Position numbers and translations under genes: made by a program
Notes under the pieces: model-generated
Database searches by the model: none
Told to the model about the DNA's origin: nothing
The model's input: only the letters and a program-made list of their open reading frames with translations
IMG/VR virus record: IMGVR_UViG_3300035701_000302
Span: 1 to 23,092 of that record
From: a virus
Direction: 5' to 3' (one strand)
DNA length: 23,092 nucleotides
In this document: positions 2,482 to 9,429 of the stretch, piece by piece
Layout of the letters: each line of letters starts with the position of its first letter
Position numbering within the stretch: the first letter of the stretch is position 1

Positions 2482-4473
2482 ATGGGTAGTGCAGCAGTTA
2501 TCACAAAAGAAGTTGATATTTCCACTAGGGTTCCATCGTTTCCTGGTGTTTATGGTGCTATGATTATTAGAGCTAAGAAAGGACCGGTTGGTGAACCACA
2601 ACTAGTAACCAGTGATAGTCAACTGCTATCAGTGTTTACTCCTGACTCCAGAATTGATGTTGGTTTTGACCTAGCCTATTTTGCTGCACTAGCCTTTTTG
2701 CAGCAAAGTAATAAGTTGTGGGTTGTTAGAGCGGCGAAAACTTCGCTCTACTCTGGCTTATCTCTTCGGGCTTCCACTTCTCCTTATACTAACTTTGCTG
2801 TTCCAGGTATGGCCGATCCAACGGCTTATATGTTCGACTCTGGATCTGATGTCGCAGCAGTGGCAGAAGTTACTCAATTCACATTCTCCCAACTCGGATC
2901 GTTCTACGACGTTATTGGTGCTGGTAAGGCACTGCAACTGTTCAACTCCCTAGCTGTTGGTCATTATTTTTGGTTCTTAGTAACTGATGGTGCTAACGTA
3001 CAAACTGATCCTGTTCTTACTGGTACTGGTCATCAAGTAAGCATCTTGGCTGCTGATACTGCAGCACAAGTAGCGACGAAGTTCTTCACCCAGGTCGCTC
3101 TGGTTGTCGCAGCATTCACTGCTACCAATGCAGTCTCGGCTCAAGTTATCGTGACCAACGTTACGGTTGGTACTGCAACTGATGCAACGGCCACTGGTAC
3201 TGCTGCAGCGATTGTTGTTAACACTCAAGGTGCAGCATTAATCTCAGTTGTTGACGAAGCGGTTCTTATTTACGCAGCCAATCAAGGTGTGTGGGGTAAC
3301 TCAGTTAGTATTAAAGTCACTAACTATGTTACCAGCCCAGATCTAGTGAAAGAGCCTGGTGCTTTCCTCATTCAGGTCTTTAAATCTAGCAACTTGGTTA
3401 TTCCGGTCGAAAGTTTCGTTTGTTCTCGCGTCCAAGGTACTCTTGATGGTTTCGGCAGCAACATCTTTGTTGAAGATGCATTGACTGGCTCCAACTATAT
3501 TCGCGCCATTAGTAATCCAGCTGTTACTAGTTCTATCAATCCTAAGGATCAGTTGACCAACCTTACCATGACTGGTGGTACTGATGGTGTGACCGTTACC
3601 GATAGTGATATGGTTACGGCATCGAACGTGCTCATCAATCGTGATGCATTTCAGGTAACTGTTCTGATGGATGGTGGATTCGCTACTGCAACATACCAGC
3701 AAAACCTGGACCTCATCGCGACAACTCGTGGTGATGCTGTTTCGCTCATCTCGACTCCAATTTCCGAAGAAATCTCTGCTACTTACCTAGATGATCTGGT
3801 TGATTATCGTAAGGTGACTCTTGCCTTAAACAGCAGCTATTCGGCTCTTTATACGCCGCATGTGCTGGTGTTCGACCGGTTCAACGACCGAAGGATCTAT
3901 GTTTCTCCAGATGGCTACGCTGGAGCAGCAGTTTCATTCTCCGCGTCCAACTTCGAAATTTGGTTCCCACCAGCTGGTTTCAAACGTGGGCTTGTCCGAG
4001 TGCTTGACCTACGCCGTCGCTTCACTCGCGGCGAAATGGATGCTCTTTACGATGCTGGTATCAACCCGCTTCGTTTTGCTCCTGGCAAAGGTATTGCTAT
4101 TTGGGGACAAAAGACTCTTCTTTCTCGTCCTTCTGCTCTCGACCGTCTCAACGTTCGGTTGTTACTCATCACTATTGAACCAGCTGTTGCATCGGCGCTT
4201 GAAGATTTCCTCTTCGAACTCAACGACGCAGCTACCAGAAATCTAGCAGTGGCAATCATTGACACGTACATGGATGGTATCAAAGCTAAGCGAGGTGTTG
4301 ACGATTTCTTGACTGTCAGTGATGACAGCAACAACACTCCGTCCGACATTGATAACAACATTATGAACGTAGATTTGTTCGTCAAACCAAAGAAAGCGGT
4401 AGAATTCATTCCGTTCCGGGTGGTTATTACTTCCTCTGGTGTTAGTTTTCAACAAGCAGCGGCGTCAATCTAA
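2482..4473 (+). CDS. gp18: Tail sheath protein (contractile)
   Basis: This 663-residue protein is almost the length of T4 gp18 (659). It forms the contractile outer tail cylinder, whose contraction drives the tube through the host envelope. The N-terminus (EVDISTRVPSFPGVYG, then KKGPVGEPQLV) is the typical start of phage sheath proteins. The C-terminal part contains the conserved core: RGEMDALYDAGINPLRF, then GIAIWGQKTL, RLNVRLLL and the final strand FIPFRVVITSSG. Residues of about 131-251 are a separate Thr/Ala/Val-rich inserted domain. The ATG follows a G-rich Shine-Dalgarno (GGGGGA at 2470-2475). The tube gene follows 25 bases later, the usual sheath-tube order. Confidence 0.97.
   Translation: MGSAAVITKEVDISTRVPSFPGVYGAMIIRAKKGPVGEPQLVTSDSQLLSVFTPDSRIDVGFDLAYFAALAFLQQSNKLWVVRAAKTSLYSGLSLRASTSPYTNFAVPGMADPTAYMFDSGSDVAAVAEVTQFTFSQLGSFYDVIGAGKALQLFNSLAVGHYFWFLVTDGANVQTDPVLTGTGHQVSILAADTAAQVATKFFTQVALVVAAFTATNAVSAQVIVTNVTVGTATDATATGTAAAIVVNTQGAALISVVDEAVLIYAANQGVWGNSVSIKVTNYVTSPDLVKEPGAFLIQVFKSSNLVIPVESFVCSRVQGTLDGFGSNIFVEDALTGSNYIRAISNPAVTSSINPKDQLTNLTMTGGTDGVTVTDSDMVTASNVLINRDAFQVTVLMDGGFATATYQQNLDLIATTRGDAVSLISTPISEEISATYLDDLVDYRKVTLALNSSYSALYTPHVLVFDRFNDRRIYVSPDGYAGAAVSFSASNFEIWFPPAGFKRGLVRVLDLRRRFTRGEMDALYDAGINPLRFAPGKGIAIWGQKTLLSRPSALDRLNVRLLLITIEPAVASALEDFLFELNDAATRNLAVAIIDTYMDGIKAKRGVDDFLTVSDDSNNTPSDIDNNIMNVDLFVKPKKAVEFIPFRVVITSSGVSFQQAAASI
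2872..3234 (+). other. Inserted beta-rich domain in the sheath protein
   Basis: Residues of about 131-251 of the sheath break the usual sheath sequence. They read as a low-charge beta domain: a GSFYDVIGAG stretch, then HYFWFLVTDG, TDPVLTGTGHQVSILA, an Ala-rich helix (AADTAAQVATKFF), and Thr/Val strands ending in TDATATGTAA. The pattern of an aromatic strand, a D-P-x(3)-G turn, a helix with AAQVA and a T-D-A end resembles decorative domains that I recall from other phage structural proteins. It is probably exposed on the outside of the sheath. The boundaries are estimated by eye. Confidence 0.55.
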
Positions 4474-4498: not shown

Positions 4499-5026
4499 AT
4501 GGCACGTCCAAGTATTGAAAACATCAGAGGACTTCCGGACTGGGCTCAAGTCATCCGGTGGGATCTTCAGTTTTCATCAATCCCAGCTGCAATTAATGCA
4601 AACATCACTATTGACGAACTCAACTTTCGTTGCGAATCAACAGCATTACCAACGGCTACCGTTGCGGCGATTGAAACCAACATTCGCGGCCACAAGGTCA
4701 AGAGTCCTGGTATCATGAGCTACGGCAACACGTTGGACTTGGTGTTCGCCGAGACTGTGGATTCGAAAATCCATTCGTTCTTCAAGGCTTGGCGTGATGC
4801 AATTTGGCAAGTCAAGACTGGAGTGGCAGCTGCTCCTGTCGCCGACCTTAAGGGGAGTTTTCTCCTTAATCGTCTCAACAATCAAGATGTTCAGATTTGG
4901 CAATACAAAGTGGTTGGGGCTTACCTTGAAAACCATTCTTTGCCAACTCTTGATGGTTCATCTAATGATGCATTAAAAGTTACGTTGACCTTCTCGTATG
5001 ATTATTACGAGGATAAGGCAGCGTAA
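4499..5026 (+). CDS. gp19: Major tail tube protein
   Basis: This 175-residue protein (T4 gp19 has 163) polymerises into the inner tail tube through which DNA passes. Family features visible are an N-terminal W-D-L-x-F strand, a loop then ELNFRCESTALPTATV, a charged beta hairpin (IETNIRGHKVKSPGI), a central helix with FFKAWRDAIWQ, and a C-terminal strand pair (QIWQYKVVGAYLENHS, then ALKVTLTFSYDYYE). It is preceded by AAAGGAG (4485-4491). Its stop overlaps the ATG of a second, related gene (TAATG). Confidence 0.95.
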   Translation: MARPSIENIRGLPDWAQVIRWDLQFSSIPAAINANITIDELNFRCESTALPTATVAAIETNIRGHKVKSPGIMSYGNTLDLVFAETVDSKIHSFFKAWRDAIWQVKTGVAAAPVADLKGSFLLNRLNNQDVQIWQYKVVGAYLENHSLPTLDGSSNDALKVTLTFSYDYYEDKAA

Positions 5027-5529
5027 TGGCGTTTCTCAATGGAATTGAGCAAATCCGATCTGTCGAATGGGGGGCGACGTATCTTTGGGATGTTAAATTT
5101 CCAGATGCACCACCACCATTCGACAGTTGGTTTCCTGCTGTCGATCTCAAAGAGGACCTAGCCAAACTTTCAACTTATGATTTTGAAGCTTACATTCATA
5201 AATTTAGTATTCCTCAAAGCACTAGCGTAAAAGAGATTCATCTAACTTTTCTAGATGATGCTAAACAAACTCTTTCTTCATGGATTGATTTTTGGATCAA
5301 TCAGACCATCTTAAACGGTGGTCAATCAGTTTCTTCGCTCGAAACATCACTTAAATTAATTCAAATACTTAAGCTCAATCGACAGCGTGAACAAGTCTCT
5401 TCTTTGACCTATGCAGTATTCCCTGAAGGTAATATCACTTTCAGTGGAAGCTCCGACACCGGACCACTGCAATACTCAGTCACCTTTAAAGTGGCTGGTA
5501 TAATCGGTCAAAAGAGGACATTCCCATGA
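5026..5529 (+). CDS. Second tail-tube-fold protein (tube paralogue or initiator)
   Basis: This 167-residue protein has the same outline as the preceding gp19-like tube: an early W-D-V-x-F strand, a helix with LSSWIDFWINQ in the same place as the tube's FFKAWRDAIWQ, and a closing pair of strands (YAVFPEGNITFSG, then LQYSVTFKVAG). The hairpin region is longer and proline-rich (PPPFDSWFPAVDL). The start overlaps the tube stop by one base, so both are translated together. Sequence identity to the tube is low by eye, so it is not a recent duplicate. It may form specialised rings at the tube base or tip, like T4 gp48 and gp54, but which end cannot be told from sequence. Confidence 0.75.
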   Translation: MAFLNGIEQIRSVEWGATYLWDVKFPDAPPPFDSWFPAVDLKEDLAKLSTYDFEAYIHKFSIPQSTSVKEIHLTFLDDAKQTLSSWIDFWINQTILNGGQSVSSLETSLKLIQILKLNRQREQVSSLTYAVFPEGNITFSGSSDTGPLQYSVTFKVAGIIGQKRTFP

Positions 5530-5541
5530 TGGAGCTTAAGT

Positions 5542-6360
5542 ATGAGTGGAAAATTTTCTCATAAGACGGGCACATTTGCCCAAAAACCTGGTGCTAGTGG
5601 TGCTCAAAAAGCCAAAATTGAGTTAGCATCTGCACATCTCCCCACAATTGATCTATCTTTTTCAGAAATTCCTTCTAAAGGTTTGACCTACCCTAAAGAT
5701 GGCAAGATTTCTTACCGACCTTACACTTTTGGTGAAGTCAAGAGAATCAGCCAGTCTAAAGTCGGTATTAAAGAGAAATATAAAGAGGCATTAGGTGGAA
5801 TTACCGTTAGCTTTGGCGCGGAAAATCTCACGATGTCGGACGCTCTTTACATTTCTCTCCTTCGGAAGCTTTCTTCTATTGGCACAGCAAAAGTGGTTGT
5901 TCCTTTCCTCTGTGCTGGTTGTTTCCAAACAAATCGGCCAACAGTAGATACTGGTGAATTGGAGTTCGATGATCTTGAAATCAAGAGTTCTCCAGTTTTT
6001 GTCGACCTTAGTGTTGGCGAAGTATCGTTTTCTCCGCTGACTGTCAAAGACTACTTCCATCTTGTTGATATTGGGAAAGAGGAGGATGAGATTGCTCTGG
6101 CGGCGATTCAGTGTCGTGATATGGAGTTCGACAAGGCTTATGAAATGATTGATCAACTGATGCCACAAGACGCAGCGGTTCTTAGTGAAGTTGATGATCT
6201 TCTCTATCATGGGTTAAAAGTGAAAGAGTTTGAGTGCAAACACTGCCAGAAAAGAACTTCTCTTGAGTTGGATGGCGGCCAAACTCTTTTCCTACCCTTT
6301 CGTCCATCCAGCGAACCTGTTCAGAATCGTATTCGTTTTGAGTCTAAAGTTAAGTGTTGA
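5542..6360 (+). CDS. gp26: Baseplate hub assembly / tail assembly chaperone (T4 gp26-like)
   Basis: This 272-residue protein (T4 gp26 has 208) shows the gp26/T4_baseplate family start: DLSFSEIPSKGLTYP, then KISYRPYTFGEVKRIS. This is followed by a helical region and a zinc-ribbon-like set of cysteines, C124-x2-C127 (FLCAGCF) and C232-x2-C235 (ECKHC). T4 gp26 is needed for hub assembly but is not clearly part of the mature virion. Its place between tube genes and tape measure is exactly that of tail assembly chaperones in many tailed phages. The start at 5542 has a GGAG seven bases upstream. A reading frame offset by +1/-2 continues past its stop to the tape measure. Confidence 0.8.
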   Translation: MSGKFSHKTGTFAQKPGASGAQKAKIELASAHLPTIDLSFSEIPSKGLTYPKDGKISYRPYTFGEVKRISQSKVGIKEKYKEALGGITVSFGAENLTMSDALYISLLRKLSSIGTAKVVVPFLCAGCFQTNRPTVDTGELEFDDLEIKSSPVFVDLSVGEVSFSPLTVKDYFHLVDIGKEEDEIALAAIQCRDMEFDKAYEMIDQLMPQDAAVLSEVDDLLYHGLKVKEFECKHCQKRTSLELDGGQTLFLPFRPSSEPVQNRIRFESKVKC

Positions 6361-6445
6361 TGCTTACAATATCAACTTTATGGATTATGGTGAAGTAAAA
6401 TTCTTGCATGATGAATTAAGTGGATATTTAGGCGGGAACACTTAA
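6338..6445 (+). CDS. Short reading-frame extension or small gene between chaperone and tape measure
   Basis: A frame shifted +1 (or -2) from the gp26-like gene stays open past that gene's stop and ends at TAA 6443-6445, which overlaps the tape-measure ATG. The part beyond the upstream stop reads DAYNINFMDYGEVKFLHDEL and ends in GYLGGNT, a protein-like sequence. Possible independent starts are TTG 6338 (35 residues) or ATG 6380 (21 residues), but neither has a Shine-Dalgarno sequence. It may therefore be reached by programmed frameshift, as in lambda gpG-GT and Mu, or by re-initiation after the TGA at 6358-6360. Which of these holds is not settled by sequence. Confidence 0.4.
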   Translation: MSLKLSVDAYNINFMDYGEVKFLHDELSGYLGGNT

Positions 6446-9429
6446 TGGGCAAACGAGAAGATAAACTCCGAAGAAGGTTGGCCAGACTCGACAAGAGGAA
6501 GGTTAAACGTGAAGAGTTTCTGCGCAAGCAAAAAGTCATTGATTCAAAATCAAAGGCAGCACTTGATGCTGCAATTTCTGCTGAAGTTGAATCAGGTAAC
6601 ACAATTGATGCAGAAATTGATTTTCTCGAAAGTTCTTTTGATACCTACGTTGCGTCTGATAAAGTTAGAGATGCTAACATAGCAACTAAGTCAGCTAAAA
6701 ACAAAGAAAAGCCAACTTCGGCGCTCCCGTTGGCAAGACAACTAGAGATGGCATCAGCTGGTCCTGAAGAAAAAGATACTACTTCACCTACAACTAAAAT
6801 AACTGTTGATCCTACTGAACCAAAAAGAAAATCTCAACCAATTGCGAAAAGAGCTAAAAGTTTAGCTAGAAAAGCTGGGAGAGCAATTTTTGGTGAGAGA
6901 ACTGCGACCAACGAAGAAGAAGGAATTCGTAAAGAGTATCAAAGGATTGTGTCTCAAAAGGATCAGTCGGTCCGGATTCTTATGGAGAATATGCAGCTTC
7001 TCCAAGAAAAGGCTGAGACTGATCCAGCTATAGCCAAGCTTCTAGTTCAACTCAAAGATAAAAAATATGAAGATGTTGAACGTTTGGTTAAAGAGGGGAG
7101 ACAGGTCTTTCCGGAGCAAGCCGAAGATTTCATTAAGGGAATTGAAGAACTAGCCAAATCTATGGAAGGGATCGATGTTTCCCTTAAAATGTCTATCCCG
7201 AGTATTATTGATCAAACCAAGAAAGTTCTTGGCGATAAAGATGCAACATTAGCTGAGAAACGAGAAACCCTTTCCGCGTTTCAAAATCTTATCAAAAAAA
7301 GTGATGTTGATCTTGACACGCAAAAAGAAATTAGAGTAATTGCTGCTGAGACTTTCAATGCTACTAAAGAAGAAAATGCATCTCTAAACCTAATACTTGA
7401 TAAAATTAGTAATAATAATAAAGATAAGAAGCTTGTTGCATCTTACCAAGAGTTAGTTGATCTCTCTGGCAATCAACTGCTTACACTCAAACAAATCAAG
7501 AAAACTAGTGATAAGCAGCTAGCCAATGGAGAATCTCAAAAAGATTCCTTTCTTAAAAGAGGTATTGGGGCTGTCAAAGGTACAGCTACTCGCGGTCTTT
7601 TAGGGTTCGGTCTTAGCCAAGTAGGTCTTGGCGGTCTTGATAATATCGTTGAAGATCTTGGTGATCTTAAAGATACTGCTAAGCTCGGATATAAAGGGGT
7701 TAAAAAGGGGTTAGGTGGTGCTGGTCGTCTCATCAATAAAATATCTGGTGGTCGTAGTGGTAGATTTGGCGGCAAGCTTCTATCGTCTGGTGGTAGACTT
7801 CTTAGCAAAATTCCAAGTCTTGGTAAATTTGGAACTGGGCTTTTGTCGGCTGGTTCTAAATTACTTCCGGCAGCTGTTGGTGGGGTTGGGGTTCTCGGAA
7901 CCGCAGGAGCGGCCGGTACTGCCACTGCTGCAGCTGGTGGACTAGCAACAGCAACAAAAGGCGCTGGGTTACTCTCCAAGCTTAGTGGATTTGCCGGTGG
8001 TGGCGCTAAACTGGCTGGAACAGCTGCTCGTTTCGCTGGTGGTCTTGCCAAATTCGCTGGTCCTATTGGTATAGCTATTACTGCTGGTATGGCAGTAAAA
8101 GATGCTGTAGATGGCTTCAATAATGCCGAGAAAATTGCTGGAATTGAACCAGGAAAAAAAGCTTCATTAGGTCAAAAAATTCAGTCAGGGCTTTCCTCTG
8201 CTGTTTCTGGTCTCACCCTTGGGTTTATCGAACCTGAAACGATTTATAGTGCAGTTGACGATTTCTTTTCCCCAATGTTTGGCAAAGACGGTTTTATTTC
8301 TCAAGTTGGAGATATTGGATCTAGATTTAGCAAAAAACTTGAAGATGGGGTTGATCTTAAAGATTTTACCAGCACTTTTGGTGAATTTTTTGATAGCGTA
8401 TTTTCGACAAATGGTATCTTGGCAAAGACTACCCAAATGGCTGGGAAAATCCTTGAGTATTCGCCTGTTGGTTATACAGCTAAAGCTCTAAACTGGATAT
8501 CTAACAAGGTTACTGGACAAAATACTTCAGTTGGTGAAAAGTTAGCATCGGTTTTACCAAAGGGTGTTGCCGAGTTTACTGGTATTTCGAAGCCAACTGA
8601 TACTGCTAGTTTTATTGGTAAGCATGAAGGAACCAACAATAATGTCTACAAAGATGTGGCTGGTCTTGATACTGTAGGGAAAGGACACCTTCTAACCAAT
8701 TCCAAACGTGACCAAGCTATTAAAGAACGTGGTTATGTGACGAAAGAAGAAGGAGAAGAGATCTTCCAAGAGGATATCGCAAAACATCAGACTTTCAAAC
8801 AACAATTGGCTGTACCTATTTCCAAAAATATGGAAACAGCAATGACTTCGTTGGCTTTTAACTTAGGGGCCAATCATCCAGCAATTCAAAAAATTACGGC
8901 TCTTGTCAACGCTGGTAAGACGCAAGAAGCTGCTGCTGAGTTTTTAAAATATGATAAAGCCAAAGATAAAGATACTGGGTTAAAGAGAGCGTTTGCTGGT
9001 CTCACCCGTCGTCGTCAAGATGAAGCCAATTTATTTCTCACTCCAGATGGCAGAGCAACACCATCCGTCTCTGGAACTGCAGCACTAGCGGCGACTTCGG
9101 AAGAGGGAGCCAAAATTATTCCGTCCCCACAGCAAGAAACATCTAGAATGGATATGGCATCTGGTCAAGATTTTGCAACTCCTTCTGGTATGAGGAAGTC
9201 AGCGATTTCTATGGAACCAATCTCTATTCAGTCAAAGGCTTTCCAAATCGCCAGTACACAAAATGCTACCGAAGTTGCAGCAACAAAGGCTAGCCTCAGT
9301 AAATCTCAATCTCCAAAAACTCCACCGATATCACTAGTTAGTAATGATAGTAGTTCTAAAGGTGGATCTAGAGCTACCCAGATTGATGACATGATGTTAT
9401 CAGTGATGAACACAACGATGCTCGACTAG
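6445..9429 (+). CDS. Tape-measure-like tail protein with embedded GH24 lysozyme domain
   Basis: This 994-residue protein has a very basic N-terminus (residues 1-40) and helical, coiled-coil-like segments to about residue 360. A Gly/Ala-rich hydrophobic region follows at about 373-555, as seen in tape measure proteins that contact membranes, then amphipathic segments to about 715. Residues 718-866 are a T4-type lysozyme domain, and a Ser/Thr-rich tail completes the protein. Tape measures set tail length and leave the tube at infection; the lysozyme would open peptidoglycan locally. It follows the chaperone gene, the standard tape-measure place, with TAATG overlap. T4 gp29 has 590 residues and no lysozyme. 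The reading as tape measure rests on position, length and the hydrophobic middle. Confidence 0.85.
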   Translation: MGKREDKLRRRLARLDKRKVKREEFLRKQKVIDSKSKAALDAAISAEVESGNTIDAEIDFLESSFDTYVASDKVRDANIATKSAKNKEKPTSALPLARQLEMASAGPEEKDTTSPTTKITVDPTEPKRKSQPIAKRAKSLARKAGRAIFGERTATNEEEGIRKEYQRIVSQKDQSVRILMENMQLLQEKAETDPAIAKLLVQLKDKKYEDVERLVKEGRQVFPEQAEDFIKGIEELAKSMEGIDVSLKMSIPSIIDQTKKVLGDKDATLAEKRETLSAFQNLIKKSDVDLDTQKEIRVIAAETFNATKEENASLNLILDKISNNNKDKKLVASYQELVDLSGNQLLTLKQIKKTSDKQLANGESQKDSFLKRGIGAVKGTATRGLLGFGLSQVGLGGLDNIVEDLGDLKDTAKLGYKGVKKGLGGAGRLINKISGGRSGRFGGKLLSSGGRLLSKIPSLGKFGTGLLSAGSKLLPAAVGGVGVLGTAGAAGTATAAAGGLATATKGAGLLSKLSGFAGGGAKLAGTAARFAGGLAKFAGPIGIAITAGMAVKDAVDGFNNAEKIAGIEPGKKASLGQKIQSGLSSAVSGLTLGFIEPETIYSAVDDFFSPMFGKDGFISQVGDIGSRFSKKLEDGVDLKDFTSTFGEFFDSVFSTNGILAKTTQMAGKILEYSPVGYTAKALNWISNKVTGQNTSVGEKLASVLPKGVAEFTGISKPTDTASFIGKHEGTNNNVYKDVAGLDTVGKGHLLTNSKRDQAIKERGYVTKEEGEEIFQEDIAKHQTFKQQLAVPISKNMETAMTSLAFNLGANHPAIQKITALVNAGKTQEAAAEFLKYDKAKDKDTGLKRAFAGLTRRRQDEANLFLTPDGRATPSVSGTAALAATSEEGAKIIPSPQQETSRMDMASGQDFATPSGMRKSAISMEPISIQSKAFQIASTQNATEVAATKASLSKSQSPKTPPISLVSNDSSSKGGSRATQIDDMMLSVMNTTMLD
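8596..9042 (+). other. GH24 (T4-type) lysozyme domain inside the tape measure
   Basis: The catalytic signature E-(8 residues)-D-(5 residues)-T of T4 lysozyme is intact as E728, D737 and T743, in KHEG, YKD and GLDT. GKGH follows, where the family usually has G-Y-G-H. Downstream are the helix QLAVPISKNMETAMTSLAFN, then FLKYDKAKDKDTGLKRAFAG and GLTRRRQDEANLF, the conserved R-R-x-x-E-x-x-L-F end of the family. The domain should cleave the beta-1,4 bond between MurNAc and GlcNAc. Confidence 0.92.

Follow-up and report, generated by a model that had tools for sequence, protein, structure and literature searches.

A putative +1 frameshift in a gp26-like tail assembly chaperone gene of T4-related phages

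What is encoded by the reading frame that crosses the end of a gp26-like tail assembly chaperone gene and closes on the start codon of the tape measure, and how might ribosomes enter it? We analyzed this locus in IMG/VR record IMGVR_UViG_3300035701_000302, positions 1–23,092 (the window, meaning the whole 23,092-nucleotide stretch of DNA under analysis), which derives from an uncultured phage related to T4.

Gene context and an overlapping +1 frame

The window contains a contractile-tail gene block of sheath, tube, a similar-sized second gene, a gp26-like gene and a tape-measure-like gene. The tail sheath protein (2482–4473, plus strand) matches phrog_23 (E 1.9e-72), and the tail tube protein (4499–5026, plus strand) matches phrog_45 (E 7e-18) and, slightly below the cut-off, PF06841 (E 4.7e-6). 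The 167-aa ORF between tube and chaperone (5026–5529) has no family match; the annotation of Cobetia phage Carin-5 lists a second tail-tube protein at the corresponding position. The gp26-like ORF (5542–6360, plus strand) encodes in the 0 frame a 272-aa protein, the short form of the tail assembly chaperone, which ends at TGA 6358–6360, scores above the curated cut-off for PF12322 T4_baseplate (30.3 versus 24.5 bits, E 4.2e-7) and matches the phrog_150 baseplate hub (E 1.4e-9). Downstream lies a 994-aa protein (6445–9429, plus strand) with a phage lysozyme domain at residues 726–860 (PF00959, E 4.4e-23), whose role as tape measure is suggested by its length and its position after the chaperone. 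The placement of the chaperone between tube and tape-measure-like gene is identical in the annotated relatives L004 and L011. A search of the window for promoters, terminators and tRNAs found none.

An earlier note on this DNA had described a +1 frame that stays open past the chaperone stop to a TAA overlapping the tape-measure ATG, and its coordinates are exact: the frame is open from 6224, past the 0-frame TGA, to TAA 6443–6445, the last A of which is the A of the tape-measure ATG. Counted from the proposed shift site, the +1 extension (6299–6445, plus strand) comprises 48 aa and would yield a long form of 300 aa. The two frames overlap at 6299–6360 (plus strand), where the 0-frame tail FRPSSEPVQNRIRFESKVKC and the +1 peptide FVHPANLFRIVFVLSLKLSVD are both conserved. 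The segment DAYNINFMDYGEVKFLHDEL, which the note had called protein-like, belongs to the +1 frame, and an extension HMM built without the window picks out this ORF among all window ORFs (E 3.4e-12; runner-up E 0.9), in a match that opens with the codon following the CCC of the slip site. The sequence CCCTTTCG occurs once in the window, which is not unusual by itself (at least one occurrence in 26 of 100 shuffles). As the note had also stated, the small frame has no Shine-Dalgarno-led start: none of the AGGA/GGAG type was found at the +1-frame starts of the window before or near the conserved core.

Conservation of the +1 reading across lineages

We compared 25 distinct lineages, comprising the window, nine other phage lineages and 15 IMG/VR loci. 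The nine phage lineages came from tblastn of public phages (Rhizobium RHph; E. coli IME392/EP_H11; Vibrio GR7B, GR11A, 1.031/150E35-1 and Va2; the Pseudomonas putida Voja-6 group; Acinetobacter Ab1-TPeters; Thermus phiLo), and the 15 usable distinct IMG/VR loci were recovered with a tail-tube profile together with a gp26 profile; single-protein scans of IMG/VR with RHph_TM39 or GR7B gave no match. We excluded a further locus (L026:2659–3534), in which the extension lies in frame with the main ORF, an arrangement best explained by an indel in an A run upstream of the site, either a sequencing error or a real fused allele. The long form is absent from the annotations of every annotated relative inspected.

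Alignment of related phages, a check that the earlier note had proposed, reveals no lineage among the 25 in which the +1 frame is interrupted between the aligned site and the end of the 0-frame stop; the summed log10 P of −33.3 is somewhat overstated because lineages were treated as independent. The null model kept the 0-frame peptide and drew codons from each gene's own usage, with base composition taken for the part past the stop. In the +2 frame, by comparison, 24 of the 25 lineages are closed. In all lineages the 0-frame product stops 9–33 codons into the tail that begins at the site, and the +1 frame runs 44–78 codons from the site, staying open 18–62 codons past the 0-frame stop and ending near the next gene where this is visible.

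One explanation of the open frame requires no recoding, with the +1 reading an untranslated by-product of a conserved 0-frame peptide. The 0-frame tail is indeed itself conserved, and several of these tails by themselves make a short open +1 overlap likely, but the openness of every lineage beyond the 0-frame stop is at odds with this explanation, as is the conservation within the overlap, where the +1 and 0-frame peptides are each conserved beyond what the other explains and 0 of 300 codon reshuffles in either direction reach the observed level. Beyond the stop, changes in close pairs fall mainly at third positions of +1 codons, and extension pN/pS is 0.07–0.10 in close pairs with enough changes and 0.17–0.28 in three wider pairs. 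These patterns indicate that the +1 extension is under purifying selection in close pairs of relatives, and we give a by-product a nearly negligible chance.

Conservation begins with the codon following the slip site, in a +1 peptide, FVxPxxLLxMxxxLA, that lies directly after CCC-TTT. The earlier note had taken this peptide for an out-of-frame shadow, a view contradicted by the reshuffles, and had preferred a later site near the stop, also allowing for a −2 shift as in Mu, which leads to the same frame. A start of conservation right after CCC-TTT argues against a later site, and reasoning from the bases, tRNA-Cys would re-pair poorly at UGU_U, the codon before the stop, while a −2 shift at CCC_UUU_C would place tRNA-Phe on CCU, where it would not re-pair. 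We consider either variant very improbable.

The extension could also be an independent short gp51 gene, with translation beginning at a start codon of its own or reinitiating once ribosomes have reached the gp26 stop. It is annotated as a gene in RHph_TM39, GR11A, Voja-6 and 1.031, the −1 counterpart in S-CRM01 is annotated as gp51-like, and TTG is common at extension codon 13 because of a shared TTTGGC. However, conservation begins 13 codons upstream of this TTG. Eleven of the 25 lineages lack any +1 start codon in the interval from the upstream +1 stop to the site. A +1 start led by a Shine-Dalgarno sequence, before or at the core, is missing from 18 of 25, whereas the starts of the gp26-like genes have such a sequence in 20 of 25. 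An Acinetobacter lineage (L011) and a Thermus lineage (L014) lack a start codon both upstream of the site and within extension codons 1–14. A separate gene would further leave the choice of TTT, CCC and CGN at the site unexplained, and we regard it as quite unlikely.

Codon choice and the proposed slip

Codon choice at the proposed site, CCC-TTT-CGT (6295–6303, plus strand), is strongly non-random across lineages relative to the codon usage of the respective genes. Phe is encoded by TTT in 24 of 24 lineages having that amino acid (P 4e-8), Pro by CCC in 17 of 24 where 16% is expected (P 1e-10), and Arg by CGN in all 20 lineages having that amino acid (P 6e-5). The earlier note had recognized CCC-TTT at 6295–6300 as a possible +1 slip site and set it aside; the relatives favor this site. 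TTT CGN is present in the window and 19 other lineages, with L010 and L034–L037 as exceptions; in L034–L037 a non-CGN codon follows TTT, and the protein alignment also permits a site several codons later, which makes its position less certain in these lineages. All lineages but one retain UUU_C (UUU_U in L034), while eight, including Thermus L014 and L025, have CCA, CCG, CCT or TTT in place of CCC. Within the window CCC makes up 2% of Pro codons, and neither protein requires CCC over other Pro codons, which points to the signal itself.

The persistence of UUU_C where CCC is replaced makes a P-site slip by tRNA-Phe the best common mechanism, on which the preceding codon may modulate the slip, as has been argued for PA-X. 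A +1 slip by tRNA-Pro on CCC_U (to CCU), rather than by tRNA-Phe on UUU_C, would give an identical product. Such a slip would account for the strong enrichment of CCC, for which the +1 frame has no need, and is the sole fit for Vibrio Va2, where the site reads CCC-TAT-TCA; the eight lineages with a replaced CCC speak against it, and CCC may instead serve as an E-site codon, a role considered for UCC in PA-X (PMC3498833). We judge a tRNA-Pro slip unlikely and prefer tRNA-Phe. A search for stimulatory RNA structure at the window site found none (fold z-scores −1.2 to 1.2 over six stretches), and CGU is not rare among window codons, so neither accounts for a pause at the site.

The single chaperone gene very probably gives both a short form and, by a +1 slip at CCC-UUU-CGU, a long form. 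Most ribosomes would terminate at TGA 6358–6360 to release the 272-aa short form, and a fraction would slip +1 at 6295–6303, with P-site tRNA-Phe shifting from UUU 6298–6300 to UUC 6299–6301 while CGU waits in the A site. The next codon would be GTC 6302–6304, and slipped ribosomes would continue in the +1 frame to TAA 6443–6445, producing a 300-aa protein that contains TLFLPFVHPANLF and would carry a small helical domain at its C terminus. If lambda G/GT is a guide, the short form would serve as a coat on the tape measure, and recruitment of the tail tube protein would fall to the rarer long form. From the conserved site, the conserved +1 reading, selection on the extension and homology of the fusion to T4-like long forms, all established by sequence comparison, we infer the slippage itself, its base-level direction, its rate and its function. 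The two forms differ in predicted tryptic peptides, with GVSQLAEPFVEMK (long, +1) versus GVSQLAEPFR (short) in E. coli phage IME392 and EDSMLVTPFVEPR (long, +1) versus EDSMLVTPFR (short) in P. putida phage Voja-6.

Relation to T4 gp26 and gp51 and to known recoding sites

T4 gp26 and gp51 are PF12322 paralogues, and gp51 carries ~48 residues past the shared domain that gp26 does not have. Profile–profile alignment matches the fused proteins to T4-like long forms with probability 98.8 (E 7.6e-17) and to gp51 proteins alone with probability 93.7 (E 2e-7), the latter alignment running through the extension, and the fusion also aligns with cyanophage gp26 plus its −1 extension; with T4 gp26 ending before the extension, these alignments support a short/long chaperone pair. 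The earlier note's reading of a recoded tail chaperone extension resembling G/GT is supported. The extension by itself matches the gp51 C terminus weakly (E 0.002–0.009; +2-frame control 0.78), and PHROG matches of the fused proteins stop short of the end of phrog_150, so homology of the extension rests on profile–profile alignment. A single gp26-family gene is present in 12 of the 13 records searched, and thus a separate long paralogue was not found in them; the 13th, RHph_TM39, has one additional weak match of 46 positions (E 0.005). AlphaFold models the 0-frame protein confidently over approximately residues 31–240, dropping off at the shift site, and models the extension separately as three helices (mean pLDDT 76). 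Of 619 aligned chains of solved structure, YqbN (Z 5.0) and the HK97 tail assembly chaperone gp13 (Z 3.8) rank highest, both at low Z, and a sequence-based search of solved structures gave nothing convincing.

Within the shared PF12322 family, T4 gp26 corresponds to the short form and gp51 to the short form plus C-terminal extension, but T4 uses two separate genes without a frameshift whereas the window has one gene with a +1 shift. T4-like phages with one short and one long fused gene, not frameshifting, are ascribed to Vladimirov et al. 2022 as cited in PMC10274946, and poly-T −1 signals in T4-like phages to the same work as cited in PMC12846349. Cyanophage gp51 is only ~20% as long (PMC3037559), and cyanophages, like the window, have a gp51-like tail (the 'short gp51') out of frame behind a gp26-family gene; this tail lies in the −1 frame behind U_UUU_UUN in cyanophages and in the +1 frame behind UUU_CGU in the window. 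We found a −1 extension behind T_TTT_TTN in P-SSM2, S-CAM22, S-CRM01, Pelagibacter HTVC008M, Desulfovibrio 7757, Rhizobium RHph_I1_9 and Vibrio phi-Grn1; in HTVC008M, S-CAM22 and Desulfovibrio 7757 the first 12 codons of the extension include no start codon. The gp26-family genes of cyanophages and other T4-like phages (L049, L051, L054, L055, L056, L059 and L060) end in T_TTT_TTC/T/G with a conserved gp51-like −1 extension, in several cases without a start codon, and a −1 frameshift appears likely in them. Vibrio D531 and Aeromonas phiA8-29 (L057, L058) have a −1 extension and no U_UUU_UUN heptamer; a TAATG overlap in D531 could act as a restart.

Cobetia phage Carin-5 (L048:2279–3175) carries a +1 extension at the same place, directly behind CCT-TGA-C, a stop-codon type of +1 site, and is with its CCU_UGA closer than the window to the Listeria PSA and Bacillus SPP1 type. 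In PSA and SPP1 the shift occurs at a stop codon, and the genes concerned encode capsid or tail-tube proteins. These +1 shifts (Tsh), mentioned in PMC3498833, resemble that of the window in recoding phage structural genes in the +1 direction. Lambda G/GT, P2 and Mu (PMC5009743) have in common with the window a position before the tape measure, a short form with a rarer long form, and recoding near the 3′ end; their shifts are −1 or −2 where that of the window is +1.

The site itself has closer counterparts elsewhere. Influenza A PA-X uses UCC_UUU_CGU (PMC3498833), one base different from CCC_UUU_CGU in the window, with a +1 P-site slip on UUU_C and Arg CGU in the A site; it operates on a eukaryotic ribosome in an unrelated gene, and CGU is rare in PA-X hosts but not in the window. 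As in the window, UUU_CGN +1 sites in general (PA-X, amalgaviruses) have a 0-frame UUU_C where +1 conservation begins, CGN next to it and no obvious RNA stimulator. A TTT-CGC +1 shift has been proposed in HF1-group haloviruses (PMC7230728), which share the TTT-CGn motif, the +1 direction and a tail chaperone before the tape measure; these viruses are archaeal, and their site adjoins the stop with no long overlap. In halovirus HF2 (L062:26028–26811, minus strand) we confirmed AAG TTT CGC AGA TAG with a +1 extension, which ends in LEMTPFQRQIFEAEK, similar to the cyanophage LENMMPWEREIY motif.

The literature searched, which covered few subscription journals, contained no description of a +1 UUU_CGN site for the gp26 family or for bacteriophages. 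The short/long chaperone pair of T4-like phages is already known, and its +1 version in the bacteriophage group of the window appears to be new. We think it probable that one family reaches this pair by four routes: +1 at UUU_CGN, +1 at CCU_UGA (Cobetia), −1 at U_UUU_UUN (cyanophages and Pelagibacter, Desulfovibrio and Vibrio phi-Grn1 phages) and two genes (T4). A 2016 review describes tail-chaperone frameshifting as conserved 'except T4' (PMC5009743); if the four-route reading is true, this exception to G/GT would reflect the replacement of a recoding site by two genes, and a PA-X-like UUU_CGN slip would be used by bacterial ribosomes. The group of the window would tie the T4 exception to the rule, as one frameshifted gene seems to be the source of the same pair in many relatives, and would account for the 'short gp51' or orphan gene of 50–70 aa that annotations of many large phages show ahead of the tape measure. 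Its site would offer a widely conserved and testable bacterial counterpart to the influenza PA-X slip site.
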